A stretch of 64,000 nucleotides of DNA from Amaranthus tricolor (Eukaryota; Streptophyta; Magnoliopsida; Caryophyllales; Amaranthaceae), in NCBI RefSeq assembly GCF_026212465.1, contig NC_080061.1, positions 22,148,787 through 22,212,786 on the forward strand, read 5' to 3'. The notes beneath the pieces are model-generated. The model worked only from the letters and a program-made list of their open reading frames with translations, had not been told where the DNA came from and did no database searches. A program made the translations under genes and the position numbers. Positions 15,211 to 61,328 of the stretch are shown here, in pieces (within the stretch, counting starts at the first letter, position 1; every line of letters begins with the position of its first letter).

Positions 15211-18200
15211 AACACTTTCTCGCATAAAGTTTTTCAAGCTTGGTTTGTTTTGCACGAAACATGGAACCCAAAACTATTTAGTTTATATTATTGCGTTGAA
15301 AAGGTAAGACTTGGAAACAATAGTCATGTACCTGAAATTACGTGCTAGGTGCGTTTTTAATGTTTGTTATATTTTTTTGGCTCTTTCCTGCATAAAGTGG
15401 TTCAAACTTGGTTTGTTTCGCACAAAACTTTGCACACAATACTATTTGGTATAAATTATGGTGTTGAAATGGTTAGAATCGAACAATAGTCATATTCTTG
15501 AAATTACGTGTTAAGTTGTTTTTTAAGGTTTTTTGTTACGTTCTCTTGTAAAAGTGTTAAAACTTGGTTTGATTGCCACGAAACTCGGCACAGAACACTA
15601 TGGCTGTAGATATCATTGTGTTGAAATGGTTATAATCCAAAACGATAGTCATATGTTTGAAATTACGTGTTAAGTTGCGTTTTTAAGGTATTTTAAGATT
15701 TTTTGGACCTTTCTCGCATAAAATGGTTCCACTTCGGTTTGTTTTGCAACAAACAAGGCACACAACACTATTTGGTACATATTATTCTGTTGAAACGGTT
15801 AGAATCGAAAACAATAGTCATATTCTTAAAATTACGTGCTAAGTTGCTTTTTAAAGGTTTTTTGTTAATTTCTCGCGTAAAATGGTTAAAACTTGATTTG
15901 ATTTCCACGAAACTCGGCACATAACACTATGGTTGTAGATATTACTATGTTGAAATGGTTATTCTCCAAAACAATTGTCATATGTTTGAAATTACGTGTT
16001 AAGTTGCATTTTTAAGGTATTTTCAGCTTTTTTGGCCCTTTCTCGTATAAAAAGGTTCCAATTCGATTTGTTTTGCAACAAACAAGGCACACAACACTAT
16101 TTGGTAGATATTATTGTGTTGAAATTGTCAGAAACGAAAACAATTGTCATATGCTTGAAATTACGTGTTAAATTGCGTTTTTAATGTTTTTTATATTTTT
16201 TGGCACTTTCTCGCACAAAGTGGTTCCAACTCGGTTTCTTTGGCACGAAACTTTGCAAACAACACTATTTGGTATATATTATTGTGTTGAAATGTTTAGA
16301 ATTTAAAATAACAGTCATATGCTTGAAATTACGTGCTAAGTTGCATTTTAAAGGTTTTCTAAGCTTTTTTGGCACATTCTCGAAAAAAGTAGTTCAAACT
16401 TGGTTGGTCTTCCACGAAACATGGCACACAACACTATTTAGCTTATATCATTGTGTTGAAATGGATAAACTCGGAAACAAAAGTCATGCACCTTAAATTA
16501 CGTGCTAAGTTGCTTTTTTAACGTCTGTTATATTTTTTTGGCACTTTCTCGAATAAAGTTGTTCAAACTTGGTTTGTTTCGCACGAAATTTGGCACACAA
16601 CACTATTTGGAATAAATTATGGTATTGAAATGCTTAGAATCCAAAACAATAGTCATATGCTTGAAATTACGTGCTAATTTGCTTTTTAAAACTTTTTTTT
16701 AGCTTTTTTAGCACTTTCTCGTATAAAGTGGTTGTAATTTGGTTTGATTGGCAAAAAACAAGGCACACAACACTATCTAGTATATATTATTGTGTTAAAA
16801 TGGTCAGAATAGAAAACAATAGTCATATTCTTGAAATTACGTGCTAAATTTCTTTTTTAAGGTTTTTTGTTACTTTCTTGCGTAAAAGGGTTAAAACTTG
16901 GTTTGATTGCCACGGAACTCGGCACACAACACTATGGTTCTGAATATTATTGTGTTGAAATGGTTATAATCCAAAACAATAGTCATATGCTTGAAATAAC
17001 GTGTTCATTTGCGTTTTTAAGGTATTTTAAGCTTTTTTGGCACTTTCTCGCATAAAATGGTTTCAACTCGGTTTATTTTGCAACAAACAAGGAACACAAC
17101 ACTATTTGGTATATATTATTGTGTTAAAATGGTTAGAATCGAAAATAATTGTCATACGCTTGAAATTACGTGCTAAGTTGCTTTATTGATGTTTTTTTTA
17201 GCTTTTTTCGCAGTTTCTCGCATAATGTTGTTAAAACTTGGTTCGTTTTTGCACGAAACACGGCACCCAACACTATTTAGTTTATATTATTGTGTTGAAA
17301 TGGTTAGACTCGAAAACAATAATCATGTACTTGAAATTACGTGCTAAATTGCGTTTTTAATGTTTTTTAAAGTTTTTTGGCATATTCTCGCATAAAGTGG
17401 TTCAAAATTGGTTTGTTTCGCACGAAACATGGCGCACAACACTATTTGGTATAAATTATTGTGTTGAAATGGTTAGAATCGAAAACAATAGTCATATGCT
17501 TGAAATTACGTGCTATGTTGCGTTTTTAATGTTTTAAATATATTTTTGGCACTTTCTCGCATAAAGTGGTTCCAAGTCGGTTTGTTTGGCATGAAACTTT
17601 GCAAACAACACTATTTGGTATATTTTATTGTGTTGAAATGTTTAGAATTTAAAAGAATAGTCATATGCTTGAAATTACTTGCTAAGTTGCATTTTTAAGG
17701 TTTTCCTTTGCTTTTTGGCAATTTTTCGAATAAAGTAGTTCAAACTTGGTTTGTCTTGCACGAAACATTGCACATAACACTACTTAGTTTATATTATTGT
17801 GTTGAAATGGTTAGACTCAGAAATAAAATTCATGTACCCGAAATTACGTGCTATGTTGAGTTTTTAATGTTTGTTATATTTTTTTGGCACTTTCTCGAAT
17901 AAAATGGTTCAAACTTGGTTTGTTTCGCACGAAACTTGGCACACAACATTATTTTGAATAAATTATGGTGTTGAAACTTTTAGAATCGAAAAAAATAGTC
18001 ATATGATTGAAATTAAATGCTAAGTTGCTTTTTTAAAGTTTTTTTTAGCTATTTTAGCTCTTTAAAGCATAAAGTTGTTCAAACGTGGTTTGTTTTGCAC
18101 GTAACATTGCACCCAACTCTATTTAGTTTATATTATTGTGTTGAAATGGTTAGACTCAGAAACAATAGTCATGTACCTGAAATTACGTGCTAAGTTGTGT

Positions 18201-18469
18201 TTTTAGTGTTTTTTATATTTTTTTGGCACTTTCTCGCATTAAGTTAATCAAACTTGGTTTGTTTCGCACGAAACTTAGCACACAGCACTATTTGGTATGT
18301 ATTGTTGTGTTGAAATGGTTAGAATCGAAAACAATAGTCATATGCTTGAAATTACGTTCTAAGTTGCTTTTTTAAAGTTTTTTTTACTTCTTTTAGCACA
18401 TTCTCGCATAAAGTAGTTCAAACTTGGTTTTTTTGGCAACAAACAAGGCACACAACACTATTTGGTATA

Positions 18470-18482
18470 CACTAGTGGAAAA
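18470..18482 (+). repeat. CACTA left terminal inverted repeat (13 bp)
   Basis: CACTAGTGGAAAA matches the reverse complement of the right end (30299-30311) over 13 bp without mismatch. CACTA superfamily transposases cut at such CACTA/G ends. Confidence 0.95.
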
Positions 18483-18502
18483 TAATGTATTTGCTACTCA
18501 TC

Positions 18503-18818
18503 ATTTGCTACGGTTTTTGTGTATTGGCAGCAAAAAATAGGAAAATGTATCAGAAATAAATATATATATTCTAATTGCTGCAGTTTTCCAATTGACTGCA
18601 GCAAATAACCTTTCACACTGCATTAATTGCTCCAATTTTTCCACAACCGCAGCAAATAACTCTTAAAAATTAGATTAATTGCTCCGGTTTTGATTAAACC
18701 GCAGCAAATATATCTTCATGAAAATGCTAATTGCTCCGGTTTTGCTTGAACCGCAGCAAATTATCCTTCACAAAATTTCTTATTGCTCCGGTTTTGTTTT
18801 GAACCGCAGCAAATGACC
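18503..18818 (+). repeat. 5' subterminal hairpin repeats, five at 52-bp spacing
   Basis: Five units begin ATTGCT at 18574, 18626, 18678, 18730 and 18782, exactly 52 bp apart. In each, TTGCTCCGGTTTTG (or a variant) is followed by an inverted partner such as AACCGCAGCAAAT, so each unit can form a hairpin. A degenerate sixth unit lies near 18503-18537 (TTTGCTACGG to GGCAGCAAA). In En/Spm, short subterminal repeats bind the TNPA-type accessory protein, and these are the likely equivalent. The regular spacing is stricter than in the 3' cluster. Confidence 0.88.
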
Positions 18819-19979
18819 GTTGGACAAAATTTTTGCAAAACCCGCCAGTTTCTTTTTTATTCACATATCCCTTCTCAAATACGTTTATACAGTTTGCTTT
18901 GTTCCTCATTGAAAAAACGCTTCATCTTCATCTTCTTTTGCTTCGTTCCTCTTCTTCATCTTCACAAACGTATAAGATTAAGCATCAAGATTTGTGTTCG
19001 TTTCTTGTGTTCATCTTCATTTTCACAAACGGTCATTTTCTGTTTTTCATCATTCTTGTTGTTGTTCATCTTCACAAACGGTCATTTGCTGTTGTTCATC
19101 ATTCTTAGCTTGTTGCTGTTCATCTTCACAAACGCTTTCTGAAGATAAATCCTTGCTGCTGTTCTTGTTCATCATCAAACTTTGAATTTTCACAAACCCC
19201 TACTATTCTTCTACTATGTTCTTGTTCATCATCATCATCATCATTTTTCAATCATACTTAATGTGAATGGGATGTAGGGGGCATAATGATAATAATAACA
19301 TACATGATGCCTTAAAAATCACTTCCTTGTTCTAGTTTTTTTACCGTCATTAACCCATAAAAATCAATTAATATCACAAAAATAAAAGACAAAAATTCTT
19401 CTTCAAAACTCACGAATTTAGTAATTTAGTTAAAAATGTGGTTTTTTAATTAATTATTTGCATATTTAGTAATTATATGTGAATGTGGTTTGTGTGTGGT
19501 TTGTAAATTAGGTTTAAATTTATCGTACTTTATGAATGTGTATGTTGTTGTTGTTTTTAAGTTTTAAATTTATCATATATATCATATTTTGTTATATTTT
19601 TAAGTAATTTCTTCATTTTATTTATGAATGTGTGTGGTTTTTAAGTTTTAAATTTATTGTAATTTTTTTTCTAGTTTGTAAATTAGGTTTAATTAGGGTT
19701 GTTTATGGTTAAATGAATGAGTTGTTGAGATGAATGTTAATTAGTTGTCCAAGTTTATGAATGTGATTTTATTTTTATAGTTTTTATATGAATATTAATT
19801 ATGGTTACTACAATAACATCATTTGGACAGTTTAAAAAACATTGTGTTATTATTTGGGTTAATTAGTGGTAAATGAATGATTATTACTTAATTTTGTGGT
19901 TAGTTAGAGTTCATTAAGTATATATGTTTAAAAGTTGTGTATTAATTTTGTTTTGAATCAATTAATCACACTAATTAGG
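18819..19979 (+). promoter_or_regulatory. CACTA 5' leader and promoter region
   Basis: This non-coding stretch lies between the subterminal repeats and the transposase. The segment 18900-19200 is pyrimidine-rich, with a degenerate repeated phrase TTCATCTTCACAAACG near 18955, 19010, 19066 and 19118, typical of a plant 5' UTR. A short ATC microsatellite lies near 19229-19243. The rest is AT-rich. Short open frames across the CT-rich part overlap in three frames and resemble nothing, so I do not call a gene. No TATA box or start site can be fixed by eye. Confidence 0.5.
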
Positions 19980-22900
19980 ATGACAAACGATCGTTCTTGG
20001 ATGTATGGAAGCATTGAATCGTCGAAATTTATTGATGGCGTATTAGAATTTTGTAGTATTGCGGTTGAACATCAAGTTAGGACGGGGGGAGTTGGTTTTA
20101 TTGCCCATGTGTCAGTTGTGGCAATGTATCATAGGTAGATAGTGTTGATATACTTAAGGAGCACATACTTCGATGTGGGTTTAGGCCTCAATATCATGTT
20201 TGGGTTTGGCATGGTGAGGAGAGAGTTTACAAAGAGAAAAGTGTTGTTGAGGACGTCAATAATGTGGTCGATGTCAATGAGGATGTAGTAGATCATGTTG
20301 ATAGGTATGAGACAGATGAAGAGAATGTCGATGAGGATGTGGATCGTGTTGATGAGATGATGGACGGAGTCGAGGATGAGTTAGGAAAACGTCCTTGTGT
20401 TTTTGACTTGTTGACAGAGGATTCTCAAAAGCCTTTGTACCCTGGATATACAAAGTTCACCAAACTAACAGCAGTGTTGGAAATTTTCAACATTAAGTCA
20501 AAGTTCAATTGGAGTGACGCTAGTTTCACAATGTTATTAGAAGCGTTAGGTGAGATGCTTCCTGAGGGAAATGAACTTCCAAAGTCGACATATTATGCCA
20601 AGAAGCTCATGTGTCCTTTCGGCTTAGAGTACCAGAAGATTCATGTATGTTCGAATGATTGTGTGTTGTATCGGAATGAAAACGAGAACTTAGAAGAGTG
20701 TCCTAGTTGTGGGTTATCGCGCTACAAGCGTAAAGGGGCTCGGGATGCTAAAGGGCCCCCGGCTAAGGTATTTTGGTATCTTCCAATAATACCTAGATTC
20801 AAGCGCTTGTTTTTTATAAAGAAAGATGCGTTAAATTTGATGTGGCATGCAGATAGGGTAAAGAAAGGTCACTTGCTCACACATCCATTTGATTCTCCGG
20901 AGTGGAAGAGTATTGATAGGTTGCATAAGACCTTTGAGGAATAGGTTCGTAATTTAAGGCTCGGACTGTGTACGGAAGGAATGAACCCATTCGGCAATCT
21001 TAGATGTCAAAATAGTACTTGGTCGGTACTTTTAGTGATCTATAATTTGCCACCTTGGTTGTGTATGAAGCGTAAGTACATAATGCTTTCGCTTTTTATC
21101 TCGGGTCCTAAACAACCTGGCAATGACATAGATGTGTATCTTGCACCTCTCGTTGAGGATTTGAGAAAGATGTGGGATGAAGGCATTTCAGTGTTTGATG
21201 CATATGCTAATGAGGAGTTCACCTTGCGTGCAATGCTTTTATGCACCATTAATGATTTTCCGGCATATGGCAACTTATCGGGGTATAAGAACAAAGGGAA
21301 CAAAGCATGCCTAATATGTATCGATGACATGGAATCCACGTGGATTCCTAAGTGCAAACACGTATTCATGCACCATCGAAAGTTCCTCCCACGAGACCAC
21401 CAATTTCGTAAGAAGAAGAAGTTGTTCCACGGGGAGGTTGAGGACCGTGTAGCTCGTCGACCGTTGACCGGTTATGAGGTTTATGAACAGGTTAAGGGAG
21501 TTGAGACTGTATTTGGTAAAACGGGGCAAGTGCAAGGGGGTGAAGACCGATTATGGAAAAAAGAATCAATCTTTTGGAAGCTTCCATATTGGAGAGATCT
21601 ACAGGTTAGGCATTGTCTTGACATTATGCATATAGAGAAAAATGTATGCGATGCCATACTCAGAACTCTCATGAACATCCCGGGTAAGACAAAGGATGTT
21701 AGGGCCTTGCGAGATTAGTTTGAATGTAAGGGTCTTCGTCCGGAGTTGTGGGCACATGTTAAGGTGAGTAAGAAAAGAAATAGAGCTGACGAAGTTGGTG
21801 GCAGTAAGAAGAAGATGAGTAATGACAAAGTTTATTTGCCTAGCAGAGAAGCGGACATTTTGTGAGTGTTTGTATGGCATTAAGGTTCCGTCTGGGTACT
21901 CATCCAACATGAAGAGATTTGTGAGCCTAAATGGTGAGCTGAAGTTGGGAAGCATGAAATCTCACGATTGCCATGTAATGATGCAAGTGTTCTTACCAAT
22001 TGCAATCCGTGGAATACTGCCAAAACATGTGAGATATGCTATTACCGAGCTATGTTCGTTCTTCAACACAATTTGTAGTAAATTTCTTGATCCCTTTAAA
22101 CTTGATGCACTTCAACTCGACGTGATTGTAACTTTATGCAAGTTTGAGATGTATTTTCCTCCTTCTTTCTTTGACATAATGGTTCATCTTATTGTCCATC
22201 TCGTTCGTGAGATCAAGCTTTTGGGTCCAGTTTTTTTAAGGTGGTGTTATCCTTTTGAAAGACACATGGGTGTTTTACAAAACAAGGTGAGGAATCCAGC
22301 ACAACCTGAGGGTAGTATGATTCAAGGCACTGTAAGCGATGAGAATAGTAACTTTATAGCCGAGTATTTGGCCATGGCAAAGCCTATTAGACTTCCCACC
22401 TCTAGACATGAAAGAAGGTTTGAGGGAAAAGGAACAATTGGCTCCAAATCGGTCACACCACCTCGAGAAAACCTTCTACATGCACACTTGTATGTGTTGC
22501 ATCATATTCCGGAAGTTCATCCTTTTTTGAGTGAGCATTTTGATATATTGGGCGCAAAACATCCTTCTAAAGGGGATAGGGCATTGACGCAGTTGCATAA
22601 CAAGACGTTTATTAATTGGTTTCATAATCGAGTAATATGTGAAGAACTCAATGGTGTATCCGAAATTGTTAAGTGGTTAGCTTTTGGTCCTCGTGATGAT
22701 GTCAACAAATATGAGGGTTACGATGTCAATGGCTTCACATTTTGGACTGAGGGTCAAGACAAGAAGTCATCGTATCTGCAAAATAGTGGAGTTTCTATTT
22801 TGGCGTCATCTACATTTTACGCAAGTGCGAAGGATCAAGCGCCGGTTGATGCTAAATTGGTATACTACGGGCGGGTACATGAAATATGGGAGGTTGACTA

Positions 22901-23276
22901 CTCTACTTTCAATATTGGTCTTTTCAAATGTAAGTGGGTAGATAATAATAGACGATGCATAAAAAATGACGACCCTTGTGGATTCACTCTTGTAGACTTA
23001 GCTCGTTTGCGTGATAGTGAGGAGCCATTCATAATAGCCACATAAGCCAAGCAAGTATTCTACATTGTAGACCCGTCTGATAAAAAATGGTCTATTGTTG
23101 TACCGGGAAAAAGAAGCATCCTTGGTATAGGTGATGTTGAGGATGAGGAATAATATGAAGTTTTTGAAGACTCCCCTCCCTTTATTAATCCAAAATCAGT
23201 GGATCAAGATGATGTAGATGATGTAGATGTTGGTTATATGCGTGTAGATCACACGGAAGGAATACATTTGAATTAA
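19980..23276 (+). pseudogene. TNP2-type CACTA transposase (TNPD-like), disabled
   Basis: This gene would encode the catalytic transposase. The ATG at 19980 opens a transposase-associated domain (DRSWMY; then FYCPCVSCGN; then WVWHGEERVY) with no internal intron apparent. The TNP2/Transposase_21 domain follows: YPGYTKFTKL, CSNDCVLYRNENENLEECP, RLGLCTEGMNPFGNLR, ISGPKQPGNDIDVYLAPL and HCLDIMHIEKNVCDAIL. Then come DUF4218 (YFPPSFFDIMVHLIVHLV, RWCYPFERHMG) and DUF4216 (YYGRVHEIWEVDY, LFKCKWVDNN). Breaks are a frameshift at or after the six-G run 20084-20089, stops at 20132, 20942, 21716, 23043 and 23151, and a frameshift near 21835-21850. Reading resumes in the family frame after each break, so these are lesions, not introns. 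The usual TDG before NPFG reads TEG here. The natural end is probably the TAA at 23274. Confidence 0.92.
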
Positions 23277-23288
23277 GTGATTCACAAG

Positions 23289-23467
23289 GTATGAATTTAA
23301 AGCTTTTTAATGTTTTTTTTGCATTTGGTTTGTTTTGAATGAAACTTTGCACATAACACTATTTGTTATATATTATTGTGTTGAACGTATTAGAATTGTA
23401 AATCATAGTCATATTCTTAATATTACTTACCTTATGTTCTAATATATTTCTATTCATACTCTTTCAG
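23289..23467 (+). repeat. Single satellite monomer inside a putative intron
   Basis: Between the transposase and the second gene lies a putative intron (AAG|GTATGA to CTTTCAG|GTACTG). Its core, 23301-23428, is one diverged monomer of the window's satellite, with landmarks in order: TTTTTAATGTTTTTTTTGC, TTTGGTTTGTTTTG, GAAACTTTGCACATAACAC, TATTTGTTATATATTATTG, TGTTGAAC, TTAGAATTG and CATAGTCATATTCTT. It is a single copy, separate from the array in the later intron, and resembles the beta type. Confidence 0.8.
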
Positions 23468-23480
23468 GTACTGATATACA

Positions 23481-25125
23481 ATGCATCTATTCAGAGACGA
23501 AATTGTCCCCGACATTGAGACCTCGGATAATGAGCATCGTAGTTATGAAAGCGAAGAGGACCAAATTGTGAGATACGAGCGTATGGCTGAAGATGCTCCA
23601 CCGATTGACAATGATTTTGAGATTGAAGACGCCCCACCAATGGATGCTCCCACTACCAGTAAGAAAAGAAAAGGGCGAGGTCCTACGAAAAACCTCAAAG
23701 TCACAGAACCCATGCATTTGGAATACAAAGCATTGGGTCAACCTTGCGGAAAATGGCGTAGGCAATATGGAAAACAAGTGGGTCTATATCCGCAAGCTTT
23801 CCATATTGCACGCATGGAACGAGGTTTCAGAGGGTTTGAAGAACTCTCTATGGAATGATACTGTGGTTAGCAACTTTACTATTTTTACTCATTTAGTTTC
23901 ATTTTAAAATTAATTTGATTGACAGTAATAAATATAAATTTTTTTTGTAGAATCTTTTCCACATCGAGAGCGATGAGGACAAGAAGAATGTGTTTTCTTT
24001 CAGCTGTTGCTGAAAGATTCAGAGATTTCAAATCCAAGCTAGTAACTGACTGGATTACGAAAAGGCGTGCCCGTACGACCAAAAAGGTCAAAACGGGAAA
24101 CGAAGGTGGAGAGCAATCACCTTCGAAGATGCCCTACGAAATATGGGGTCACATATCGAAGAGGGATTGGGAGGCCTTTGTTGCCAAAAGAACAACTTCC
24201 AAAGAAGTTGTAAGTATTTCATATTATATTATAGTTTACCAATTTGAATTTACTTCTTTTGATTCAGTCATTAAACTAATACATGACATTCGACTTCTAT
24301 TGACTAATTAGGAAAAGCGTGGTAAAGCTTCTGATTCTGCAAGCAAAAGCAAGTTTCACCATCGCTTGGGCCAGAAAACGTACGATGAGGTCCGAAAAGA
24401 GTGGGTGGATGCGTGTTTATACCCCCATCAAAGTTTATCCACGCCCTCATCTACGACTACCTCCGCATCCGTGAATACTCCTCCTAGAGATCGGGTGCGT
24501 GATTGGTATTGCGGGCTTCATTTCCGGAACGAAGAAGGTTGCTGATGCTGTGGTGAGTTTTGAAATTATTAAGTATATTCTTCATTTGTTTTGTATTCTT
24601 TGGCTTTGATGTACTTATACTAATTGCTATATATATCACTTTTTATTTGAACAGATGGGCTGAAAGGAAAAAGAAGCTACGGGGGAGTTCACCCCAAGAG
24701 GCAATATTGACGCATTGCATATGGTCTTAGGGAAAGACCACAGTGGGCGGGTAGTCAGAAAAAGAGGCGTCCGCGTGGGGTTACAGAAGGCATTCGGCAA
24801 AGAGTGTGTTGCTACTCAATCACGAACGGCGCTGCGGGATGAAGTAGCAACCCTCCGAGCGGAGATTACGAAGGACGTTCTCGCCGAGCTGGCCGTCGTG
24901 TTGCAGAAGATGGGAGCACACATTGTTGACTTGGCAAACCTGATTGTCGAGGATCAGGAAAGTCAACATGGGGATCCTAACGCTTCGATTGAGCCAGCAC
25001 CCGAGCCCATTACCCCCGTAGCACCCCAGCTCATTACTATTACCCATGAAGGGGAAAACCCCACACCGGAGAATATAAACTCCGTTGCTCAAAATTCGGA
25101 GCCAACTGCAGAGCCAGTGCTACAG
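23481..25125 (+). pseudogene. Ptta/En-Spm (Transposase_24-like) portion
   Basis: The acidic N-terminus (many E and D, residues 5-60) leads to KKRKGRGPTKN and then LGQPCGKWRRQYGKQVG, a typical Transposase_24 start. A frameshift near 23780 moves the match to RKLSILHAWNEV and GLKNSLWNDTV, where exon 1 ends at 23865. Exon 2 (from 23951) reads NLFHIESDEDKKN and SKLVTDWITKRRA, and exon 3 KFHHRLGQKTYDEVRKEWVD and DWYCGLHFRNE. Near 24537 about 10 expected residues are missing and the frame shifts, fusing into KKVADAV. Exon 4 (24655-25125) has a TGA at its third codon, then FTPRGNIDALHMVLGKDHSG and a helical segment rich in E, L and A near 24835-24920, then a proline-rich tail. The family is seen as TNPA-like DNA binding; the activity here is lost. 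Confidence 0.82.
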
Positions 25126-25994
25126 GTACATAGTTTTTAAATATATAATCACTTATTAATTTAAACTGCAACGCGTTTTAATATTTTATTATGATCCGTA
25201 TTATACTAAACGACACAATTTTCAGGAGGCGACTCCTTGTTCTCTTTTGCTGCCTCAGTTAGGTGTTGCTAGTGATGGCGACTTAACTGTGGTTGCATAT
25301 GGTGTATTCAACGCCTGTTACAAGTGGCCACATCAGTGTGGCCCTGGAAACTATTATAAAGGGGTTTGAAGATATCTCACTCTCGGTTCCAATACCAGCA
25401 TGGAGCCTTGAGAAACTCTCACACCCTCTAGGTAGTTTCATCACATGGCCATATGCTTGGGTCCGATTCACTAAAATGGTAAGAATCATTTGTACCTTAT
25501 TGTTTTTACTTTTTTAATTGCATGCTCACACTAATTTATTTGTATAAATTGAAATAGCAAAAGAGTCCAAAGGGATCTTGGAGAGAGGTCGGTTCCTCAG
25601 CAAAGGTGTCGACTGGGTCAAAGTCGATGCCAAGCACTCCAATTTTGACTGATGAGGAGCTAAAAGATCTCTCTCAAGATTGCAAATGGCTGCATTATTG
25701 TGCATCTCGCATAAGTGAGGAGGACTCACTCATTCTGAACCTGTTGAAGGAGCAATACTGCTTTTTAGAGAGCCCGTTTGTAATTATGGGTCCTAGTGAC
25801 ATCGGGCAATTTTTGAGAGGAGAGATGCTGAACGTAGCTCTTTTCCATGTCTACATGAGATGATGTTCATTATCTTACAAGTTAGGCATTGTTGTTTAAT
25901 TGTTTTAATAAAAATTAGATGGTTTTGTCCTGAGTCGATTTCGTGTAGTAAATGTGTAAATGATCCAGATGACGTTCGAGCATACATTCAGATT

Positions 25995-26159
25995 GCTTTG
26001 ACTAATTCCCTTGCATCTAAACACACGTTCATTCTGGCTCCATATGTAGAAGAGTAAGTTTTATTTTTGAAATTGAACTTATCTTTTGATTTTTAAAGTC
26101 ACCTAATCTCTAATTTGTTGAATGCTTTGACTAATTCCCTTGTATCTAAACGCACATTC
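25995..26159 (+). repeat. 37-bp exon segment duplicated 129 bp downstream
   Basis: GCTTTGACTAATTCCCTTG begins at 25995 inside the coding exon and again at 26124 inside what is now intron. The two 37-bp copies differ at 3 positions. The second copy lies where the missing His/Asp part of the protease would be expected, so the loss and the duplication may be one rearrangement. Confidence 0.85.
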
Positions 26160-26900
26160 AGAATGCGTACGTAATATTAATTATTTTACCAAGTTGATTT
26201 AATTAAGTGTTATATAGATATATAAATAGTATTACTTTTCCCATGCGTTTCAGCACAATGAAAAAAGTGCGTGGACAAATGGGATGTACATCCAGAGCTT
26301 CCAAAATGGACAGCAATAAAGGTACACTAATTCGATTTTATGCGTTTTTAACCGTTTTGGCACTTTCGCGCGTAAAGTAGCTCAAACTTGGTTTGTTTTG
26401 CACGAAACATGGCACACAACACTACTTGGTATATATTATTGTTTTGAAGTTGTTAGAATTGAAAATCGTAGTCATATGCTAGAAATTACGTGTTAAGTAG
26501 CGATTTTATACGTTCTTAAGCGTTTTTGTCAATTTCGCGCGTAAAGTAGCTCAAACTTGGTTTGTTATGCACGAAACTTGGCACAGAACACTATTTGGTA
26601 TATATTATTGTATTGAAGTGGTTAGAATTGAAAATCATAGTCATATGCTTGAAATTACGTGTTAAGTTACGATTTTATGCTTTTTAACCGTTTTTGGCAC
26701 TTTCGCGCGTAAAGTAGCTCAAACTTGATTTTTTTTGCACGAAACTTGGCACACAACACTATTTGGTATATATTATTGTGTTGAAGTTGTTAGAATTGAA
26801 AATCGTAGTCATATGCTGGAAATTACGTGTTAAGTTGCGATTTTATGCGTTTTTAACTGTTTTTAACTCTTTTGCGCATAAAGTAGCTCAAACTTGGTTT

Positions 26901-27312
26901 TGATGTGAAACCGGGGCTGATAAAGGCCTTGGTTATGCAAGGAATAATGTTGTGAGGAAAATTTCATTAATGACACAGACAAAAACGACAAATGATCATT
27001 AAAAGAACACGAAACAACCACAAACACTTAGACAATTCTGATCTAGCACACTGTCGAGCAGCCCTCCTTCAGCTCAGCTTCTAGGAGTCCACGGGGATTG
27101 TTAGAATGGTTTAAGGACCTTGATAGCTAGATCCAAGTACCGAGATTCCATTTCCACTTTAGCCTAGGTCCTGAATGCATAGGTTTAGTCTCCACGTGTC
27201 GTGTAAGGTGGTCTGGTCACAAGTTTGCTGCTCTGTCGTGAGGTCTGTATGCAGCCTTGTGTGGGCTCCTTTGGTATCTTCATTTCATACAACCACATTT
27301 GTATCATATTTT
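26901..27312 (+). repeat. 412-bp non-satellite insert in the intronic satellite, copy 1
   Basis: The satellite stops after CTTGGTTT and resumes at CACGAAACTTGGC, exactly around the conserved dyad of the monomer. Between them is a GC-richer, unrelated sequence starting TGATGTGAAACCGGGGCTGA and containing GCTTCTAGGAGTCCACGGGG and AAGTACCGAGATTCCATTTC. I see no open frame, terminal inverted repeat or target duplication. It recurs at 27983-28599, so it is part of a longer repeat unit of about 1.08 kb (4 monomers plus insert). Confidence 0.85.
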
Positions 27313-27982
27313 CACGAAACTTGGCACACAACACTCTTGGGTATATATTATTGTGTTGAAGTGGATAGAATTGAAAATCATAGTCATATGCTAGAAATTA
27401 CGTGTTAAGTTGCGATTTTATGTGTTTTTAAGCGTTTTAGTCAATTTCGCGCGTAAAGTAGCTCAAACTTGGTTTGTTATGCACGAAACTTAGCACACAA
27501 CACTATTTGGTATATATTATTTTTTTGAAGTGGTTAGAAATGAAAATCATAGTCATATGCTAGAAATTACGTGTTAAGTTGCGATTTTATGCGTTTTTAA
27601 GCGTTTTTGTCACTTTCGCGCGTAAAGTAGCTCAAACTTGGTTTGTTATGCACGAAACTTGGCACAGATCACTAATTCGTATATATTATTGTGTTGAAGT
27701 TGTTAGAATTGAAAATCATAGTCATATGCTAGAAATTACGTGTTAAGTTGAGATTTTATGCGTTTTTAACCGTTTTTTGCACTTTCGCGCGTAAAGTAGC
27801 TCAAACTTGGTTTGTGTTGCACGAAACTTGGCACACAACACTATTTGGTATATATTATTGTGTTGAAGTTGTTAGAATTTAAAATCGTAGTCATATGCTA
27901 GAAATTACGTGTTAAGTTGCTATTTTATGCGTTTTTAACTGTTTTCAACACTTTTGCGCATAAACTAGCTCAAACTTGGTTT

Positions 27983-28599
27983 TGATGCGAAACCGGGGCT
28001 GATTAAGGCCTTGGTTATGCAAGGATTAATGTTGTGCAGAAGCTTTGATTAATGACACAGACAAAAAGTACAAATGATCATGAAAAGAACACGAAACAAC
28101 CACAAACACTTAGACAATTCTGATCTAGCAAATTGTCGAGCAGCCCTCCTTCAGCTCAGCTTCTAGGAGTCCACGGGGATTGTTAGAATAGTTTAAGGAC
28201 CTTGATAGCTAGATCCAAGTACCGAGATTCCATTTCCACTTTAGCCTAGGTCCTGGATGCATAGTTTTAGTCTCCACGTATCGTGCACAGTGGTCTGGTC
28301 ACTAGTTTGCTGCTGTGTCGTGAGGTCTGTATGCAGCCTTATGTGCAGCCCTCCTTCAGCTCAGCTTCTAGGAGTCCACGGAGATTGTTAGAATGGTTTA
28401 AGGACCTTGATAGCTAGATCCAAGTACCGAGATTCCATTTCCACTTTAGCCTAGGTCCTGGATACATAGGTTTAGTGTCCACGTGTCGTGCAAGGTGGTC
28501 TGGTCACTAGTTTGTTGCTGTGTCGTGAGGTCTGTATGTAGCCTTGTGTGGGCTCCTTTGGTATCTTCATTTCATACAACCACATTTGTATAAGATTTT
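27983..28599 (+). repeat. Non-satellite insert, copy 2, with an internal 205-bp tandem duplication
   Basis: This is the same insert as at 26901-27312, at the same position in its monomer, but 205 bp longer. The part starting CAGCCCTCCTTCAGCTCAGC at 28141 repeats from 28346. The junction lies at GCAGCCTTATGTG|CAGCCC, so GCAGCC microhomology may have mediated the duplication. Apart from this the two copies are close, which indicates a recent duplication of the 1.08-kb unit. Confidence 0.88.
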
Positions 28600-29763
28600 C
28601 ACGAAACTTGGCACACAACACTCTTTGGTTTATATTAATGTGTTGAAGTGGATAGAATTGAAAATCATAGTCATATGCTAGAAATTGCGTGTTAAGTTGC
28701 GATTTTATGCGTTTTTAACCGTTTTTGTCAATTTCGCGCGTAAAGTAGCTCAAACTTGGTTTGTTACGTACGAAACTTGGCACACAACACTATTTGGTAT
28801 TTATTATTGTGTTGAAGTGGTTAGAATTGAAAATCATAGTCATATGCTAGAAATTACGTGTTAAGTTGCGATTTTATGCGTTTTTAAGCGTTTTTGTCAA
28901 TTTCGCGCGTAATGTAGCTCAAACTTGGTTTTGTTATGCACGAAACTTGGCACACAACACTATTTGGTATATATCATTGTGTTGAAGTGGTTAGAATTGA
29001 AAATCATAGTCATACGCTAGAAATTACGTGTTAAGTTGCGATTTTATGCGTTTTGAAGCGTTTTTGTCACTTTCACGCGGAAAGTAGCTCAAACTTGGTT
29101 TATTATGCACGGAATTGGCACAAAACACTATTTGGTATATATTATTGTGTTGAAGTGGTTAGAATTAAAAATCATAGTCATATGCTTGAAATTACGTGTT
29201 AAGTTGCGATTTTAGCGTTTTTAACCGTTTTTGGCGCTTTCGCGCGTAAAGTAGCTCAAACTTGGTTTGTTTTGCACGAAACTTGGCACACAACACAATT
29301 TGGTATATATTAATTTGTTGAAGTGGTTAGAATTGAAAATCGTAGTCATATGCTAGAAATTACGTGTTAAGTTGCCATTTTATGCGTTTTTAACCGTTTT
29401 TGACACTAACATCTATTTCTCTTAGTGCTTTCAACAACCTTCTTCTTCCGTTGAATGCGGCTACTACGCGCTGAAGTATATGGACGATATTATAAAATTC
29501 GTGAAGGAGTTTGGAGTCGTAAATATAGATGTCGTAAGTATTTGTTATGTTCTTTATTAAACAATTATTGGTAAAATCTAATGTTTATATATTCATCTTT
29601 TATTTTTATTTTATATTATAGGTTTTAAACGACATTCCGAGGGAAACACGCCCTTTGAGAAGTGGAGAGATGCGTGAATTAAAAGACAAGATTGCCACGT
29701 ATCTTGCTAGTATTTGTCCTTGATAAATTGTAATTAGTATTGATTATTTTTTATACTTTAATG

Positions 29764-30052
<289 letters not shown>

Positions 30053-30298
30053 TATTTGCTGCGGTCAGGGGCAAAACCGCACCAAATAATGCCCCACTTA
30101 TTTGCTGCGGTTTTGCCTCTGACCGCAGCAAATACCCCTCCTTATTTACTGCGGTTTTGTTTTGACCGCAGCAAAAAAAGCCCTTATTTTCTGCGGTTTT
30201 TAACCGCAACATTTAAAGTAGGACATTTGCTGCTATCACTATTGCTGGGGGCCAAAACCGCAGCAAAAAATGGCAAAAAAACCGCAGCAAACGAGGTT
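30053..30298 (+). repeat. 3' subterminal hairpin repeats of the CACTA element
   Basis: Units with TTTGCTGCGGTTTTG and inverted partners GACCGCAGCAAAT lie near 30054, 30100 and 30144, with degenerate ones near 30187, 30228 and 30255-30290 (AAAACCGCAGCAAA twice). They share the TTGCTGCGGTTT core with the 5' cluster but have 41-46 bp spacing. They are the likely binding sites for the accessory transposase at this end. Confidence 0.88.
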
Positions 30299-30311
30299 TT
30301 TTCCACTAGTG
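30299..30311 (-). repeat. CACTA right terminal inverted repeat (13 bp)
   Basis: TTTTCCACTAGTG is the exact reverse complement of the left end at 18470-18482. Satellite resumes directly after it with TATATATTG, in register with the sequence left of the element. Confidence 0.95.
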
Positions 30312-33300
30312 TATATATTGCTGTGTTCAAATGGTTAGAATCGAAAAAAATAGTAATATTCTTGGAATTACGTGCTAAGTTGTTTTTTCAAGGATTTTTG
30401 TTACTTTCTTGCATAAATCGGTTAAAACTTGTTTCGCTTTCCACGAAACATGGCACACAACACTATATTTGAAGATGTTATTTCGCTGAAATAGTTATAA
30501 TCGAAAAAAATAGTTATGTACGTGAAATTACGTGGTAAGTTGCGTTTTTATTGTGTTTTATATTTTTTTGGTACTTTGTCGCATAGTTGTTGAAACTTGG
30601 TTTGTTTCGCATGAAACTTGGCGCACAACACTATTTGGTATATGTTATTATGTTGAAATGGTTTGAATCGAAAACAACAGTAATATGATAACAATAACGT
30701 GCTAAGTTGCTTTTTTATGTTGTTTTTTAGCTTTTTTAGCACTTTTTCGCATAAAGTTGTTGAAACTTGGTTTGTTTTGCACGAAACATGGCACCCAATA
30801 CTATTTAGTTTATGTTATTGTGTTGAAATGGTTAGATTCGGAAACAATCGTCATGTACCTAAAATTACGTGCTAAGTTACGTTTTTAATGTTTTTTATAT
30901 TTTTTGCCACTTTCTCGCATAAGGTTGTTCAAACTTGGTTTGTTTCGCATGAAACTTGGCACACAACACTATTTTGTATAATTTATTGAGTTGAAATGGT
31001 TCAAATCGAAAACAATAGTCATGTGCTTGAAATTACGTGCTAAGATGCTTTTTTTAATGATTTTTTTGCTTTTTTAGCACTTTCTCGCATAGAGTGGTTC
31101 ACACATGGTTTGTTTGGTAACAAATGAGGCACACAACATTTTTGGTATATATTATTGTGTTGAAATGGTTAGAATCGAAAACAATAGTGATATTCTTGAA
31201 ATTACTTGCTAAGTTGCGTTTTTAAGGTTTTTTAAGCGTTTTTGGCAGTTTCTCGCATAAAATGGTTCCAACTCGGTTTGTTTAGCACGAAACATTGCAC
31301 ACAACACTATTTGGTATATATGCTTGAAATTACGTGCTAAGTTGCTTTTATAAAGTTTTCTTTAGCTTTTTTAGCACTTTCTCGCATAAAGTAGTTCAAA
31401 CTTTGTTTGTTTGGCACGAAACTTTGCACACAACACTATTTGGTAGATATTATTGTGTTGAAATGGTTAGACTCGAAAAAATAGTCATGTACTTGAAATT
31501 ACGTGCTAAGTTGCGTTTTTAATGTTTTTTATATTATTTTTTTGCACTTTCTCGCATAAGATTATTCAAACTTGGTTTGTTTCGCACGAAACCTAGCACA
31601 CAAGACTATTTTGTATAAATTATTGTGTTGTAATGGTTACAATCGAAAACAATAGTCATATGCTTGAAATTACGTGCTAAGATTCTTTTTTTAAGTGATT
31701 TTTAGCTTTTTTAGTTCTTTCTCGCATAAAGTTTTTCAAACTTGGTTTGTTTTCCACGAAACATGGCACCAACCACTATTTAGTGTATATTATCGTGTTG
31801 AAATGATTAGACTCGAAAACAATACTCAAGTACATCAAATTACGTGCTAAGTTGCGTTTTTAATGTTCTTTATATTTTTTTGGCACTTTCTCGCATAAAG
31901 TGGTTCAAACTTGGTTTGTTTCGCACGAAACCTAGCACACAACATTATTTGGTTTAAATTGTTGTGTTGAAAATGGTTAGAATCGAAAACAAAGTCATAT
32001 GATTGAAATTACATGCTAAGTGGCTTTTTTAAAGTTTTTTTTAGCTTTTTTAGCTCTTTCTTGCATAAAGTTGTTCAAACTTATTTTGTTTTGCACGAAA
32101 CATGGCACCCAACTCTATTTAGTTTATATTATTGTGTTGAAATTGTTAGACTAAGAAACAATAGACATGTACTTGAAATTACGTGCTAAGATGCCTTTTT
32201 AATCTTTTGTATATTTTTTTGGCGATTTCTCGCTTAAAGTTATTCAAACTTGGTTTGTTTCGCACGAAACTTGGCACACAACACTATTTGGTATAAATTG
32301 TTGTGTTGAAATGGTTAGAATCGAAAACAATAGTCATATGCTTGAAATTACGTTCTACGTTGCTTTTTTAAAGGTTTTTTAACTTCTTTTAGCACATTCT
32401 CGCATAAATTGTTCAAAGTTAGTTTGTTTTGCACGAAAATTGTCACCCAACACTATTTAGTTTCTATTATTTTGTTGAAATGGTTAGACTCGAAAACAAT
32501 AGTCATACACTATCAATTACGTGCCAAGTTGCGTTTTTAAATTTTAATTTTTTTGAAACGTTTTTAGCACTCTCTCGCAAAAATTAGTTCAAACTTGGTT
32601 GTTTGGCAACAAACAAGGCACACAACACTTTTTTTGTAGATGTTATTATGTTGAAATGGTTATAATCGAAAACAATAGCCATATGCTTGAAATTACGTGG
32701 TAAGTTGCGTCTTTAAGGTTTTTAAAGCTTTTTTGGCACTTTCTCGAATAAAGTTGTTCAAACTAGGTTTATTTTGCACGGAAAATGGCACCCAACACTA
32801 TTTAGTTTATAATATTGTGTTTAACTGCTTAGACTTGAAAACAATGGTCATGTACTTTAAATTACGTGCTAAGTCGCATTTTTGATGTTTTTTATATTTT
32901 TTGTACTTTCTCGCATAAAGTGGTTCAAACTTGGTTTCTTTCGCACGAAATGTAGCACACAACATTATTTGGTATAAATTGTTGTGTTGAAATGGATATA
33001 ATCGAAAACAAAAGTCATATGATTGAAATTACATGCTAAGTTGCTTTTTTACAGTTTTTTTTAGCTTTTTTAGCTCATTCTCACATAAAGTTTTTCAAAC
33101 TTGGTTTGTTTTGCACGAAACAAGGCACCCAACTCTTTTTAGTTTATATTATTGTGTTGAAAATGTTAGACTCAGAAACAATAGTCATGTACCTGAAATT
33201 ACGTGCTAAGTTGCGTTTTTATTGTTTTTTATATTTTTTTGGCACTTTCTAACATAAAATGATTCAAACATGGTTTTAATTCGCACGAAACCTAGCACAC

Positions 33301-36159
33301 AACACTATTTGGTATAAATTATTGTGTTGAAATGGTTAGAATCGAAAACAATAGTCAAATGCTTGAAATTACGTGCTAAGTTGCTATTTAAAAGTTTTTT
33401 TTAGCTTTTTTAGCTCTTTCTCGCATAAAGTTTTTCAAACTTGGTTTGTTTTGCACGAAACATGGCACCCAAAATTATTTAGTTTATATTAATGTGTTGA
33501 AATGGTTAGACTCGAAAAAAATAGTCACGTAGTTGAAATTACGTGTTAAGTTGCGTTTTTAATGTTTTTTATATTTCTTTTGCACTTTTTCGCATAAAGT
33601 GGTTCAAACTGGGTTTGTTTCGCACGAAACATGGCACACAACACTATTTGGTATAAATTATTGTGTTGAAAATGGTTAGAATCCAAAACAATAGTCATAT
33701 GCTTGAAATTACGTGCTAAGTTGCTGTTTAAAGTTTTTTTTAGCTTTTGTAGCACTTTCTCACATAAAGTGGTTCAAACTGGGTTAGTTTCGCACGAAAC
33801 CTAGCACAAAACATTATTTGTTATAAATTGTTGTGTTGAAATGGTTAGAATCGAAAACAAAAGTCATATGATTAAAATTACATGCTAAGTTGCTTTTTTA
33901 AACATTTTTTTAGCTTTTTTAGCTCTTTCTCGTATAATGTTGTTCAAAGTTGGTTTGTTTTGCGCAAAACATGGCACACAACTCTATTTAGTTTGTATTA
34001 TTGTGTTGAAATTGTTAGACCCAGAAATAATAGTCATGTACCTGAAATTACGTGCCAAGTTGCGTTTTTAATGTTTTTTATATTTTTTTGGTACTTTCTC
34101 GTATAAAGTTATTCAAACTTGGATTGTTTCGCACGAAACTTGGCACACAACACTATTTAATTGGGATAAATTATTGTGTTGAAAATGGTTAGGATCGAAA
34201 ACAATAGTCATATGCTTGAAATTACATGCTAAGTAGCTTTTTAAAGTTTATTTTTAGCTTTTTTTGCAATTTCTCGCATGAAGTGGTTCAAACTTGGTTT
34301 GTTTGGCAACAAACAAGGCACAGAACAATATTTGGTATATATTCTTGTGTTGAAATGGTTAGAATCAAAAACAATAGCAATATTCTTGGAATTACATGCT
34401 AAGTTGATTTTTTTAAGGTTTTTTGTTTCTTTTTGTTGCATAACTGGTTAAAACCTTGTTTGATTGCCACGAAACATAGAACACAACACTTTATTTGTAG
34501 ATGTTATTGTGTTGAAATGGTTATAATCGAAACAATGGTCATATGCTTGAACTTATGAGCAAAGTTGCGTTGTTATGGTTTTTTAAGCTTTTTTGGCACT
34601 TTCTGGAATATAGTTGTTCAAACATGGTTTGTTTTGCACGAAAAATTGCACAAAACACTATTTAGTTTATATTATTTTGTTTCAAACATTAGACTCGAAA
34701 ACAATAGTCATGTACTTTAAATTACGTGCTAAGTTGTGTTTTTAATGTTTTTTGTATTTTTTTGGCACTTTCTCACATAAAGTTGTTCAAACTTGGTTTG
34801 TTTCGCGAGAAACTTGGCGCAAAACACTATTTGGTATAAATTATCGTGTTGAAATGGTTGGAATCGAAAATAATAGTCATATGCTTTAAATTACGTGCTA
34901 AGTTGTTTTCTTAACGTTTTTTTTAGCATTTTTAACACTTTCTGGTATAAACTTCGAACTTGCTTTATTTTGCACGCAACATGGCACCCAACACTATTTA
35001 GATTATATTATTGTGTTGAAATGGTTAGACTCGAAAATAGTAGTCATGTACTTGAAATTACGTGCTAAGTTGCGTTTTTTACATTTTTAATGTTTTTATT
35101 TTTTTTGTCACTTTCTCGCATAAATTGGTTCAAATTTGGTTTGTTTTGCACGAAACCTAGCACACATCACTATTTGGTATAAATTATTGTGTTGAAATGG
35201 TAAGAATTGATAACAATAGTCATATGCTTGAAATTACATGTTAAGTTGCTTTTTTTAAGTATTTTTTAGCTTTTTTGACACTTTCTCGCATAAAGTTGTT
35301 CGAACTTGGTTTATTTTGCACGGGACATGGCACCCAACACTATTTAGTTTATATTATTTGTTTTGAAATTCCTAGACTCGAAATCAACTGTCATGTACTT
35401 TAAATTACGTGTTAAGTTGCGTTTTTAATGTTTTTTATATTTTTGTGGCACTTTACCGCATAAAGTCGTTCAAACTTGGTTTGTTTCGCTCGAAACTTGA
35501 CACACAACACTATTTGGTATAAATTATTGTATTGAAATGGTTAGAATCGAAAACAATAGTCATATGCTTGAAATTACGTGCTAAGTTTATTTTCTTAAGT
35601 TTTTATTAGCTTTTTTAGCAATTTCTCGCATAAAGTGGTTCAAACTTGGTTTGTTTGGCACGAAACTTTGCACACAACACTATTTGGTATATATTACTGT
35701 GTTGAAATGGCTAGACTTGAAAAAATAGTCATGTATTTGAAATTACGTTCTAAGTTCCGTTTTTAATGTTTTTATTTATTTTTTTCGCACTTTCTCGCAT
35801 AAAATGATTCAAACTTGGTCTCTTTCGCAAGAAACCTAGCACACAACACTATTTGGTGTAAATTATTGTGTTGAAATGGTTGGACTCGAAGCCAATAGTT
35901 ATACGCTTGATATTACGTGCTAAGTTATTTTTAAAAAGTTTTGGTTTTTTAGCACTTTCTCGCATAAGGTAGTTCAAACGTTGTTTTTTAGCAGCAAACA
36001 AGGCACACAACACTATTTGGTATATATTATTGTGTTGAAATGGTTAGAATCGAAAACAATAGTTATGTACTTGAAATTACGTGCTAAGTTGCATTTTTAA
36101 TGTTTTTTTTTATATTTTTTTGGCAATTTCTCACGTAAAATGATTCAAACTTGGTTTGT
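30312..36159. repeat. Satellite array, middle block (old type)
   Basis: This continues the left block in the same orientation and register after the CACTA insertion. It shows mixed alpha and beta monomers and a third variant in which the dyad reads TTTGGCAACAAACAAGG (for example near 34303-34320 and 35985-36003). Homogeneity is low, as in 1-18469. A local repeat of the CACGAAACCTAGCACAC variant is frequent at 31580-33800. No gene is present. Confidence 0.93.
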
Positions 36160-38535
<2,376 letters not shown>

Positions 38536-39496: not shown

Positions 39497-42400
39497 TTCA
39501 TCTAGCTGCTTCTTCTGCTCAGCCAATTCAGCTGGAGCAAAACAGTAAGGAGTTTTAGAAATAGGGGTGATATCAGAAATTAGGTCAATATGGAAGTCTA
39601 CTTCTCTTTTTGGAGGTATACCGGGTAATTCTTCAGGAAACACATCAAAATATTCTTGAACGATCGGGGTTTCTTGCAAAATAGGTTTAGGTATCTCTTC
39701 TTCAGTAGTAAAAAAACACATCAAAGTTTTTTTTAGCTTTGTTAGCACTTTCTCGCATAAAGTTGTTCAAACTTTGTTTGTTTTGCACGAAAAATGTCAC
39801 CCAACACTATTTAGTTTCTATTATGATGTTGAAATGGTTAGACTCGAAAATAGTAGTCATGTACTCGAAAATACGTGCTAAGCTACGTTTTTAATGTTTT
39901 TTATATTTTTTTGCCACTTTCTCGCATAAAGTGGTTCAAACTTGGTTTGTTTCGCACGAAACCAAGCACACAACACTATTTGGTATAAATTATTGTGTTG
40001 AAATAGTAAAAATCGATAACAACAGTCATATGCTTGAAATTACGTGCTAAGTTGCTTTTTTAAAGTTTTTTTAGCTTTCTTAGCACTTTCTCGCATAAAG
40101 TAGTTCAAACTTGGTTTGTTTGGAAACAAACAAGGCACATAACACTATTTTGTATATATTATTGTGTTAAAATGGTTGGAATCGAAAACAATAGTCATAT
40201 GCTTGAAATTACATGCTAGGATGCTTTTTTAAAGTTTTTTTATAGTTTTTTTAGCACTTTCTGGCATAAAGTTGTTCGAACTTGGTTTGTTTAGCACGAA
40301 ACATGGCACCCAACACTATTTAGTCTATATTATTGTGTTGAAATGCTTAGACTCGAAAACAATAGTCATGTACTTTAAATAACGTGCTAAGTTGCGTTCT
40401 TAATGTTTTTTATATTTTTTTGACAATTTATCGCATAAAGAGGTTCAAACTTGGTTTGTTTCGCTCGAAACATGACACACAACACTATTTGGTATAATTT
40501 ATTGTGTTGAAATGGTTGGAATCGAAAACAGTAGTGATATACTTGAAATTACGTGCTAAGGTTTTTTTTTTAGTTCTTTTTATCTTTTTTAGCACTTTCT
40601 CGCATAAAGTGGTTCAAACTTGGTTTGTTTGGGACAGAAACTTTGCACACAACACTATTTGGTTTATATTATTGTGTTAAAATGTTTTGAATTTAAAACC
40701 ATAGTCATATGCTTGAAGTTACGTGCTAAGTTGCGTTTTAAATGTTTTTTTTTATTTATTTGCACTTTTTAACATAAAGTGGTTCTAACATGGTTTGTTT
40801 GGCAAAAAGCAAGGCACACAACACTATTTAGTAAAAATTATTGTGTTGAAATGGCTTGAATCCAAAACAATTGTCATATGCTTGAAATTACGTGCTAAGT
40901 TTCTTTATTAAGGTTGTTTTTTAGCTTTTTTAGGACTTTCTCGCATAAAGTTTTTCAAACTTGTTTTGTTTTACACGAAACATGGCACCAAACACTATTT
41001 AGTTTATATTATTGTGTTGAAATTGTTAGACTTGAAAAAATAGTGATGTACTTGAAATTACGTGCTAAGTTGCGTTTTTAATGTTTTTTATACTTTTTTG
41101 TCACTTTCTCGCATAAAAAGATTCAAACTTGGTTTGTTTCGCACAAAATCTAGCACACGACACTCTTTGATATAAATTATTGTGTTGAAATGGAAAGAAT
41201 CGAAAAAAATTGTCACATGCTTGAAATTACGTCCTATATTGCTTTTGAAAATTTTTTTTAGCTTTTTTAGCACTTTCTCGCATAAAGTGGTTCAACCTTG
41301 GTTTGCTTGGCAACAAACAAGGCACACAACACTATTTGGTACATATTATTGTGTTAAAATGCTTCGAATTGAAAACAATAGTCTTATGCTTGAAATTACG
41401 TGCTATGTTGCATTTTTTATGTTTTCAATATTTTTTTGGCACTTTCACGCATAATAAGATTCAAACATGGTTTGTTCCGCACGAAACCTAGCACACAACA
41501 CTATTTGGTATAAATTATGGTGTTGAAATGGTAATAATCGAAAGCAATAGTCATATGCTGGAAATTACGTGCTAAGTTGCTTTTTAAAAATTTTTTTGGC
41601 TTTTTTAGCACTTTCTTGCATAAAGTGGTTCAAATTGGTTTGTTTGGCAACACTATTTGGTACATATTATTGTGTTAAAATGGTTAGAATTGAAAACATT
41701 AGTCATATGTTTGAATTTACGTGCGAAGTTGCTTTTTTTTCAAGTTTTTGTTAGATTTTTAAGCACTTTCTCGTATAAACTTGTTCAAACTTGGTTTATT
41801 TTGCACGAAACATGGCACCAAATACTATTTAGTATATATTATTGTCTTGAAATGATTTAACTCGAAAACAATAGTTATGTACTTGAAATTACGTGTTAAG
41901 TTGCGTTTTTAATGTTTTTTTATAGTTTTTGGCACTTTCCCGCAGAAAGTGGCTTAAACTTGGTTTGTCTAGCACGAAACTCGACGCACAACACTATTTG
42001 GTATAAATTATTGTGTTGAAATGGTTGGAATCGAAAACAATAGTCATATGCTTTAAATTACGTGTTAAGGTTCTTTTTAAATATTTTTTTGGCAACAAAC
42101 AAGGCACACAAAACTATTTGGTATATATTGTTGTGTTGAAATGGTTAGAATCGCAAACAATAGTCATGTACTTGAAATTACGTGTTAAGATGCGTTTTTA
42201 ATGTTTTAAATATTATTTTGGCAATATCTCGCATAAACTTATTCAAACTTGGTTTGTTTCGCACGAAACCAAGTACACAACACTATTTGCTATAAATTAT
42301 TGTGTAGAAATGGTTAGAATCAAAAACAATAGTCATATGCTTGAAATTACGTTCTAAGTTGCTTTTTTAAAAAATTTTTTAGCTTTTTTTATCACTCTCT

Positions 42401-61300: not shown

Positions 61301-61328
61301 ACCTTTTTAATGTTTTTAATTTTTTTTT
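51715..61328. repeat. 6-monomer higher-order repeat, 964-bp period, about 10 tandem copies
   Basis: The m1 marker GGCACTTTCCCGCA lies near 52655, 53616, 54580, 55544, 56511, 57473, 58437, 59401 and 60364, with a first unit at about 51718 that lacks the start of m1. Each unit is m1, a hybrid of m2 and m6, m7 (short), m8, m9 and m10, compared with the 10-mer HOR. Copies are nearly identical, so this is the youngest part of the window. The copies at 52.1-53.5 kb and 55.9-57.4 kb share private variants at an offset of 3857 bp (four units). Confidence 0.92.

Follow-up and report, generated by a model that had tools for sequence, protein, structure and literature searches.

Does a transposon that lies in a satellite array carry the satellite as cargo of its own, or has it taken up monomers from such an array? 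This question is raised by a CACTA element of Amaranthus tricolor that is inserted in a 169-bp satellite and that holds monomers of the same family in an intron of its Ulp1-like gene. It bears on two open questions, namely how one satellite spreads to many chromosomes and what the source of centromeric repeats is. The element lies in the window, by which is meant the whole stretch of DNA that was analysed (64,000 nucleotides, located on contig C15 at 22.149-22.213 Mb of an assembly of 519.85 Mb in 45 contigs). The results presented below indicate that the CACTA transposon probably spreads and seeds the 169-bp satellite.

The element of the window and its introns

The features of the window are collected in Table 1. 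The terminal inverted repeats (TIR) of the element begin with CACTA; a 3-bp target site duplication was looked at, and TATA flanks both ends in an AT-rich site. In a protein search, the best match of the transposase piece was at 97%, and its closest named relatives were from Beta, Spinacia and Chenopodium (73% at most). Rfam gave 0 matches on the element. A spliced Ulp1 reading was composed of exons that come mostly from another copy (L002) and of the last exon of the window copy; over the junction of intron U, it matches PF02902 (Peptidase_C48) with 38.9 bits for a cut-off of 20.7. As judged from its sequence, the window copy is defective: the stretch bearing the His/Asp-like motif of L002 is missing and exon A is 5 bp short.

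Table 1. Coordinates of the element, its introns and the surrounding satellite, counted from the first nucleotide of the window
Feature	Coordinates	Strand	Description
Flanking 169-bp satellite, left	1..18469	+	from sequence
CACTA element	18470..30311	+	11,842 bp; ends CACTAGTGG...CCACTAGTG; inserted in one 169-bp satellite monomer; flanks are satellite in phase
tnp2 transposase ORF piece	20945..21718	+	PF02992, 251.6 bits
Transposase continuation, DUF4218 and DUF4216	21819..23045	+	PF13960, 116.8 bits; PF13952, 39.7 bits
Spacer/intron T	23289..23467	+	GT...AG; between transposase stop and next ORF
Single degenerate satellite monomer in T	23340..23428	+	nhmmer E 9.2e-16
Ulp1-like exon A	26254..26321	+	end ...WTAIK; in L002 and L014 longer by 5 bp
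Intron U with satellite	26322..29425	+	3104 bp; GT...AG; phase 0; reads WTAIK, then CFQQPSSSVECGYY
Satellite block 1 in U	26336..26900	+	1 partial and 3 monomers
Non-satellite insert in U	26901..27312	+	seen in 20/30 close copies read
Satellite block 2 in U	27313..27982	+	4 monomers
Second insert copy, with internal tandem duplication	27983..28599	+	TRF period 205 at 28140-28550
Satellite block 3 in U	28600..29407	+	4 monomers and 1 partial
Ulp1-like exon B	29426..29533	+	CFQQPSSSVECGYYALKYM; PF02902 match spans exon A/B junction
Flanking satellite, right	30312..36160	+	from sequence
Flanking satellite, continuing with interruptions	39722..64000	+	from sequence

An earlier reading of this DNA, made from the sequence only, had placed about 13 monomers of a distinct subfamily in one GT-AG intron of the Ulp1-like gene, with the exons joining in frame. 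The intron was recovered at exactly the same coordinates, and a profile built from the window satellite detected 13 monomer stretches in it (11 near-complete, and 2 partial ones at the ends); the phase of the intron and the domain match across its junction agree with the in-frame join. The satellite of intron U is discontinuous: the gaps between its three blocks (412 and 617 bp) contain no satellite. Neither these gaps nor the monomer in T figured in the sequence-only reading. The insert of about 411 bp is always found, in intron arrays, between monomer position ~164 and the start of the next monomer, and none was found in the 6 kb read of the array at C15:21.85 Mb. With one mismatch allowed, intron U of the window has 11 matches each to the motifs CGCGTAAAGTAGCTC and GCGATTTTATGCG, vs 1 and 0 in its flanks; the flank motif CGCATAAAGTGGTTC has 0 matches in this intron. 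The subfamily distinction is thereby borne out, and the intron array was rejected as a local copy of the flanking array since the motifs differ between the two.

The coding exons of the element show no satellite homology, which is confined to T and U. A T spacer with one degenerate monomer was present in 20/20 close copies read (one of them being the window copy); in five further copies, T bore one monomer in four cases and a remnant in one (L126). The T spacer of L126 begins with monomer sequence in a phase other than that of U (GTATGAAACTTTGCACACAACAC vs monomer GCATGAAACTTGGCACACAACAC).

Other observations concern the array around the element. Between positions 51000 and 61000 of the window, the satellite is organised in a recurring higher-order unit of ~964 bp that includes shortened monomers of 120 bp, and a similar spacing of matches was seen at C10:23.73-23.75 Mb. 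Two minus-strand ORFs that break up the satellite (window positions 38575-39135 and 48317-48772) resemble, by eye, pieces of Ty3/gypsy-type polyproteins.

Monomers in close, older and distant copies

Close copies were sought using exon A and the start of the intron as a query, which gave 812 first-pass candidates, of which 40 were scored and 30 loci read (one of them being the window). Monomers directly follow exon A in the same register in all 30 (L026 has a partial monomer only). The intron thus always carries the repeat among the close copies read, as the sequence-only reading had asked, and an accident of the window copy was rejected as an explanation; the view of that reading that the intron monomers are not flanking satellite copied in is confirmed, and these monomers belong to the inherited make-up of a high-copy CACTA family. 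Complete U introns range from 232 to 3104 bp (12 readings with both ends, L040 and L063 being one locus; many U introns are cut in the 3.1-kb loci as extracted). A search for monomer-free U introns of ~52-112 bp between the exact exon ends of the CACTA family gave 0 matches for these ends and lengths. In many of the copies listed, the transposase frame is open over 1123 codons, so that the family looks recently active. The monomer type of U tracks exon identity (25 loci, Spearman 0.65), a correlation that is partly selected because the three old loci among them came from a flank-type word. A short copy was also seen at C5:16.52 Mb (L042), with CACTA ends ~2.7 kb apart and ~1.7 monomers, and is possibly a small, non-autonomous satellite carrier.

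Older copies were reached through an exact flank-type 38-mer that has 287 occurrences in the assembly, and around which 30 loci (L031-L060) were taken as the first in contig order, not as a random sample. Element DNA (~71-94% to the window element) adjoins the monomers in 17/30 of these loci, and monomers lie between exons A and B in L031, L032 and L040/L063. The last of these, an older diverged element at C4:14.10 Mb, has 5 monomer matches in T and 4 in U. Monomer homology of U begins at the splice donor in L031, L032 and L063; in L063, U starts with AAAG and then GTACACAACACTATTTGG, vs monomer GGCACACAACACTATTTGG. In L036, L043, L051 and L052, monomers link the T side directly to the U side, which is the outcome expected if the arrays of the two introns recombine.

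A distant CACTA family was found with a Spinacia protein query at C5:13.226 Mb and C11:13.384 Mb. Both copies have a spacer where T would lie, with a length of 120 bp at C5. The C5 copy was also read at the U position and has a phase-0 intron of 115 bp there, placed at the corresponding codon (WNKLK, then CPRQPQDAKYCGYY). No monomer was detected in T and U of this family, the best matches having E values of 0.79 or worse. The introns therefore predate the repeat, which was gained in the array-bearing lineage, and the possibility that the satellite created the introns was rejected. This gain took place within the lineage of the CACTA family to which the window element belongs, by birth or by one old capture. 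A DUF4216 search and a search with protein P0005 (63 scored, 65-67% identity throughout) found no clearly different CACTA family.

Long arrays and the direction of flow

A satellite 35-mer allowed up to 3 mismatches has 134,091 matches in the assembly (0 for the reversed control), which corresponds to at least ~22.7 Mb of satellite (4.4% of the assembly) at one monomer per match. In the window, the 35-mer matches 147 places vs 302 monomer stretches over 100 bp; scaling by this ratio gives a total of ~46 Mb as a rough extrapolation. The satellite forms long head-to-tail arrays of a single monomer. Among 40 probes of C15 at 21.5-23.3 Mb, satellite was found in 26, spanning 21.70-23.10 Mb, and the element in 3. 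The region is bordered by another tandem repeat, in which GTTCATTGATCATTGATCC is frequent (L104, L105 and L123, at C15:21.5, 21.6 and 23.3 Mb). By eye this repeat resembles the 42-bp AmC9, and 3 x 42 = 126 bp is the length of the unit named as centromeric for A. tricolor (see below). Near the window, array subfamilies were also observed at C15:21.846-21.852 Mb (L124, of young intronic type) and at C15:21.700 Mb (L125, on the minus strand and closest to the old T type).

We consider it fairly probable that the CACTA family has long carried the satellite by inheritance and that it exports seeds to long arrays. The 169-bp satellite would be old inherited cargo of this high-copy family, kept in T and U (two introns, or spacers resembling introns), where a run of monomers can lengthen and shorten since introns tolerate length change. 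Each transposition would set a ready short tandem array at a new site, and some of the transposed arrays would have expanded into long satellite blocks, presumably by unequal exchange or circle-based amplification; the element also inserts into satellite blocks, as in the window. The net flow would thus run from intron to array. Both the short arrays inside the close copies (30/30) and the long arrays outside are observed. Against this reading counts the fact that two introns bear the repeat, which calls for a second event.

The main alternative is an ancient capture without export, in which monomers entered the introns of an ancestral element, by recombination or repair, while it lay in an array that was already there; they would have been carried by the element ever since, and the long arrays would have evolved independently. 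A quinoa CACTA element has been proposed to have captured a 171-bp satellite array (PMC8978399), the present element does occur in arrays (the three C15 probes), T and U are empty in the distant family, and the satellite is present in several Amaranthus species (see below). Capture is nevertheless judged unlikely in view of the following comparisons of intron and array monomers.

Consensus sequences were compared by substitutions over up to 167 columns. The old U consensus has 0 differences from the C7 array and 1 each from the C3 and C6 arrays, and the young U consensus has 4 and 7 differences from two sets of C15:21.80-22.0 Mb and 15 or more from the other array sets; the nearest intron type of the C15:21.70 Mb array is old T (10 differences). 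Different intron lineages are matched by different long arrays, which argues against capture. The arrays of the window have 5-10 consensus differences from old U or the deletion derivatives and 1-7 among themselves, with no exact intron match among the consensuses compared. Capture without export is also at odds with an array attached to element exons at C7:31.749-31.754 Mb, where ~26 monomers adjoin exon B, exon C and the 3' TIR of a copy whose 5' side is broken, the far side of the array being host sequence that resembles the host sequence past the TIR. No element was found at the inspected edges of the C3, C6 and C15 arrays, which, like the missing exact intron match of the window arrays, counts against export. 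Seen by eye over a wider interval (L061 and L062, C7:31.744-31.760 Mb), the TIR-side host sequence recurs beyond the ~26-monomer array, apparently insertion-free, pointing to a local duplication in which one site is empty.

A maximum likelihood tree was built for 128 monomers (48 intron or element, 70 array, and 10 C7 rows that were uncounted). It requires 12 changes for intron-to-array only vs 19 for array-to-intron only, the former being lower in 200/200 bootstrap trees. Shuffled labels lean the opposite way (0/300 as extreme as observed), and balanced subsamples on the same tree favoured intron-to-array in 200/200 cases. The lean was weaker on resampling with FastTree and 30 new samples (22/30, and 21/30 with 4 ties in a stricter set), and AU tests rejected neither a young-intron clade (p 0.47 and 0.50) nor a C15-array clade (p 0.55). 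Terminal branches are shorter for intron than for array monomers, and this could draw intron monomers to the tree backbone. The tree results favour repeated export without proving it, and the first origin is unsettled by them. The sequence-only reading had expected that capture would be revealed by related elements with an empty orthologous intron and by intronic copies nested inside the array clade. Empty orthologous introns do exist, in the distant family; nesting of the intron monomers inside arrays was not found, and the tree leans opposite to capture without excluding either direction.

Continual two-way exchange, with elements and arrays recombining and converting each other and neither being the source, would fit the intermixing of old-U with C3, C6 and C7 monomers on the tree and the T-U joins described above, which point to recombination between such arrays at least within elements, but it is distinctly improbable given that 40/40 sampled young-intron monomers have other young introns as nearest neighbours (in the set without the C15:21.85 Mb array) and that the window intron has not been converted to the type of the surrounding array.

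Sister species and known systems

AmC4 is a 169-bp satellite, among the most abundant in A. cruentus (1.0%), which forms pericentromeric clusters on many chromosome pairs in FISH (PMC11678860), and the major centromeric monomer of A. hypochondriacus is a 169-bp repeat (PMC5577786). These two differ at 2/169 positions and belong to the same family as the young intron monomers, so that the satellite is present in at least 3 Amaranthus species. Among the consensuses, AmC4 has its highest identity with the C15:21.80-22.0 Mb arrays (91.5-91.9%), ahead of young U (90.3%), old T (89.6%), old U (88.5%) and the window arrays (87-88%). For the A. hypochondriacus repeat, the identity is 90.9% with young U, 90.3% with the C15 array and 86-88% with the consensuses of the window arrays. 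The margins between consensuses are small. The A. hypochondriacus repeat has a mean identity of 88% to the 11 full-length intron monomers of the window and of 81% to its 265 array monomers. AmC4 falls within the young-intron clade with a support of 99/95 (92/82 for the clade in another sample). Satellite DNA is reported at 5.70% in A. tricolor vs 0.27% and 0.16% in two grain species, with AmT1 at 91% to AmC4 (PMC12651990). The centromeric unit named for A. tricolor is 126 bp (PMC9847342), and no centromere role is therefore claimed here for the 169-bp satellite in this species. AmC4 matches part of exon 3 of an annotated A. tricolor ncRNA, LOC130799021 (PMC11678860, Table 2), so that some monomers may be part of transcripts, which could stem from such elements.

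The sequence-only reading had gone further and proposed the intron as birthplace of the satellite, with capture by the element as the main alternative. It is supported in part: the intron monomers are no copy of the flanks, and they group both with long arrays at other places of the genome and with the satellite of A. cruentus and A. hypochondriacus; a first birth in the intron is plausible and unproven, as the second intron also bears the repeat and the introns of the distant family are empty. The broadest reading, in which a centromeric satellite of the whole genus arose in the CACTA introns, has been preserved in them, is spread by transposition and repeatedly seeds megabase arrays in amaranths, including the centromeric repeat of A. 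hypochondriacus, is put forward tentatively and seems to us somewhat doubtful.

The seeding of long arrays by the CACTA family remains the preferred reading. It would mean that a mobile element holds a ready array of the genus's major satellite in its introns, where cut-and-paste travel leaves the coding sequence untouched. An apparent series of stages is found in one genome: empty introns in the distant family, short intronic runs, an expanded attached run and megabase-scale blocks. The direction of flow is directly testable with published Amaranthus genomes.

In the open-access literature, considered by titles and abstract openings and mostly without subscription journals, no report was found of a satellite array in CACTA introns, and the amaranth 169-bp repeat was nowhere tied to a CACTA element. 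AmC4 and the A. hypochondriacus repeat are described as satellite only, without a CACTA link in the available parts of the two papers (PMC11678860 and PMC5577786). It is already known that transposon-internal repeats can turn into satellites (PMC12628747, PMC7004042), and CACTA elements have been proposed both as a source of satellites (PMC7320549) and as captors (PMC8978399). A close case is the CACTA element Jozin with the satellite CficCl-61-40 of Chenopodium, in the same plant family, where a CACTA element is likewise the proposed source of the genus's major satellite (PMC7320549). The Jozin array starts from a ~40-bp piece of transposase coding sequence, whereas in amaranth 169-bp monomers stand as arrays in introns of every close copy read; an origin of the monomer from transposase coding sequence does not apply to the amaranth element. 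The array of the quinoa CACTA element is also a satellite inside a CACTA, of similar monomer length and near the 3' end (PMC8978399), but in the accessible text it is reported as a capture, without intron placement, whereas the amaranth array occupies two introns and belongs to a pericentromeric/centromeric satellite family. Internal tandem repeats of a mobile element also seed long arrays in Lathyrus, where satellites derive from 3'UTR repeats of Ogre (PMC7004042); these lie in the UTR of an LTR retrotransposon, and those of amaranth in introns of a DNA transposon. An intronic origin is shared by a monkey satellite derived from a eutherian intronic sequence (Valeri 2018, as cited in PMC7004042), the intron being that of a host gene in the monkey case and that of a transposon in amaranth.
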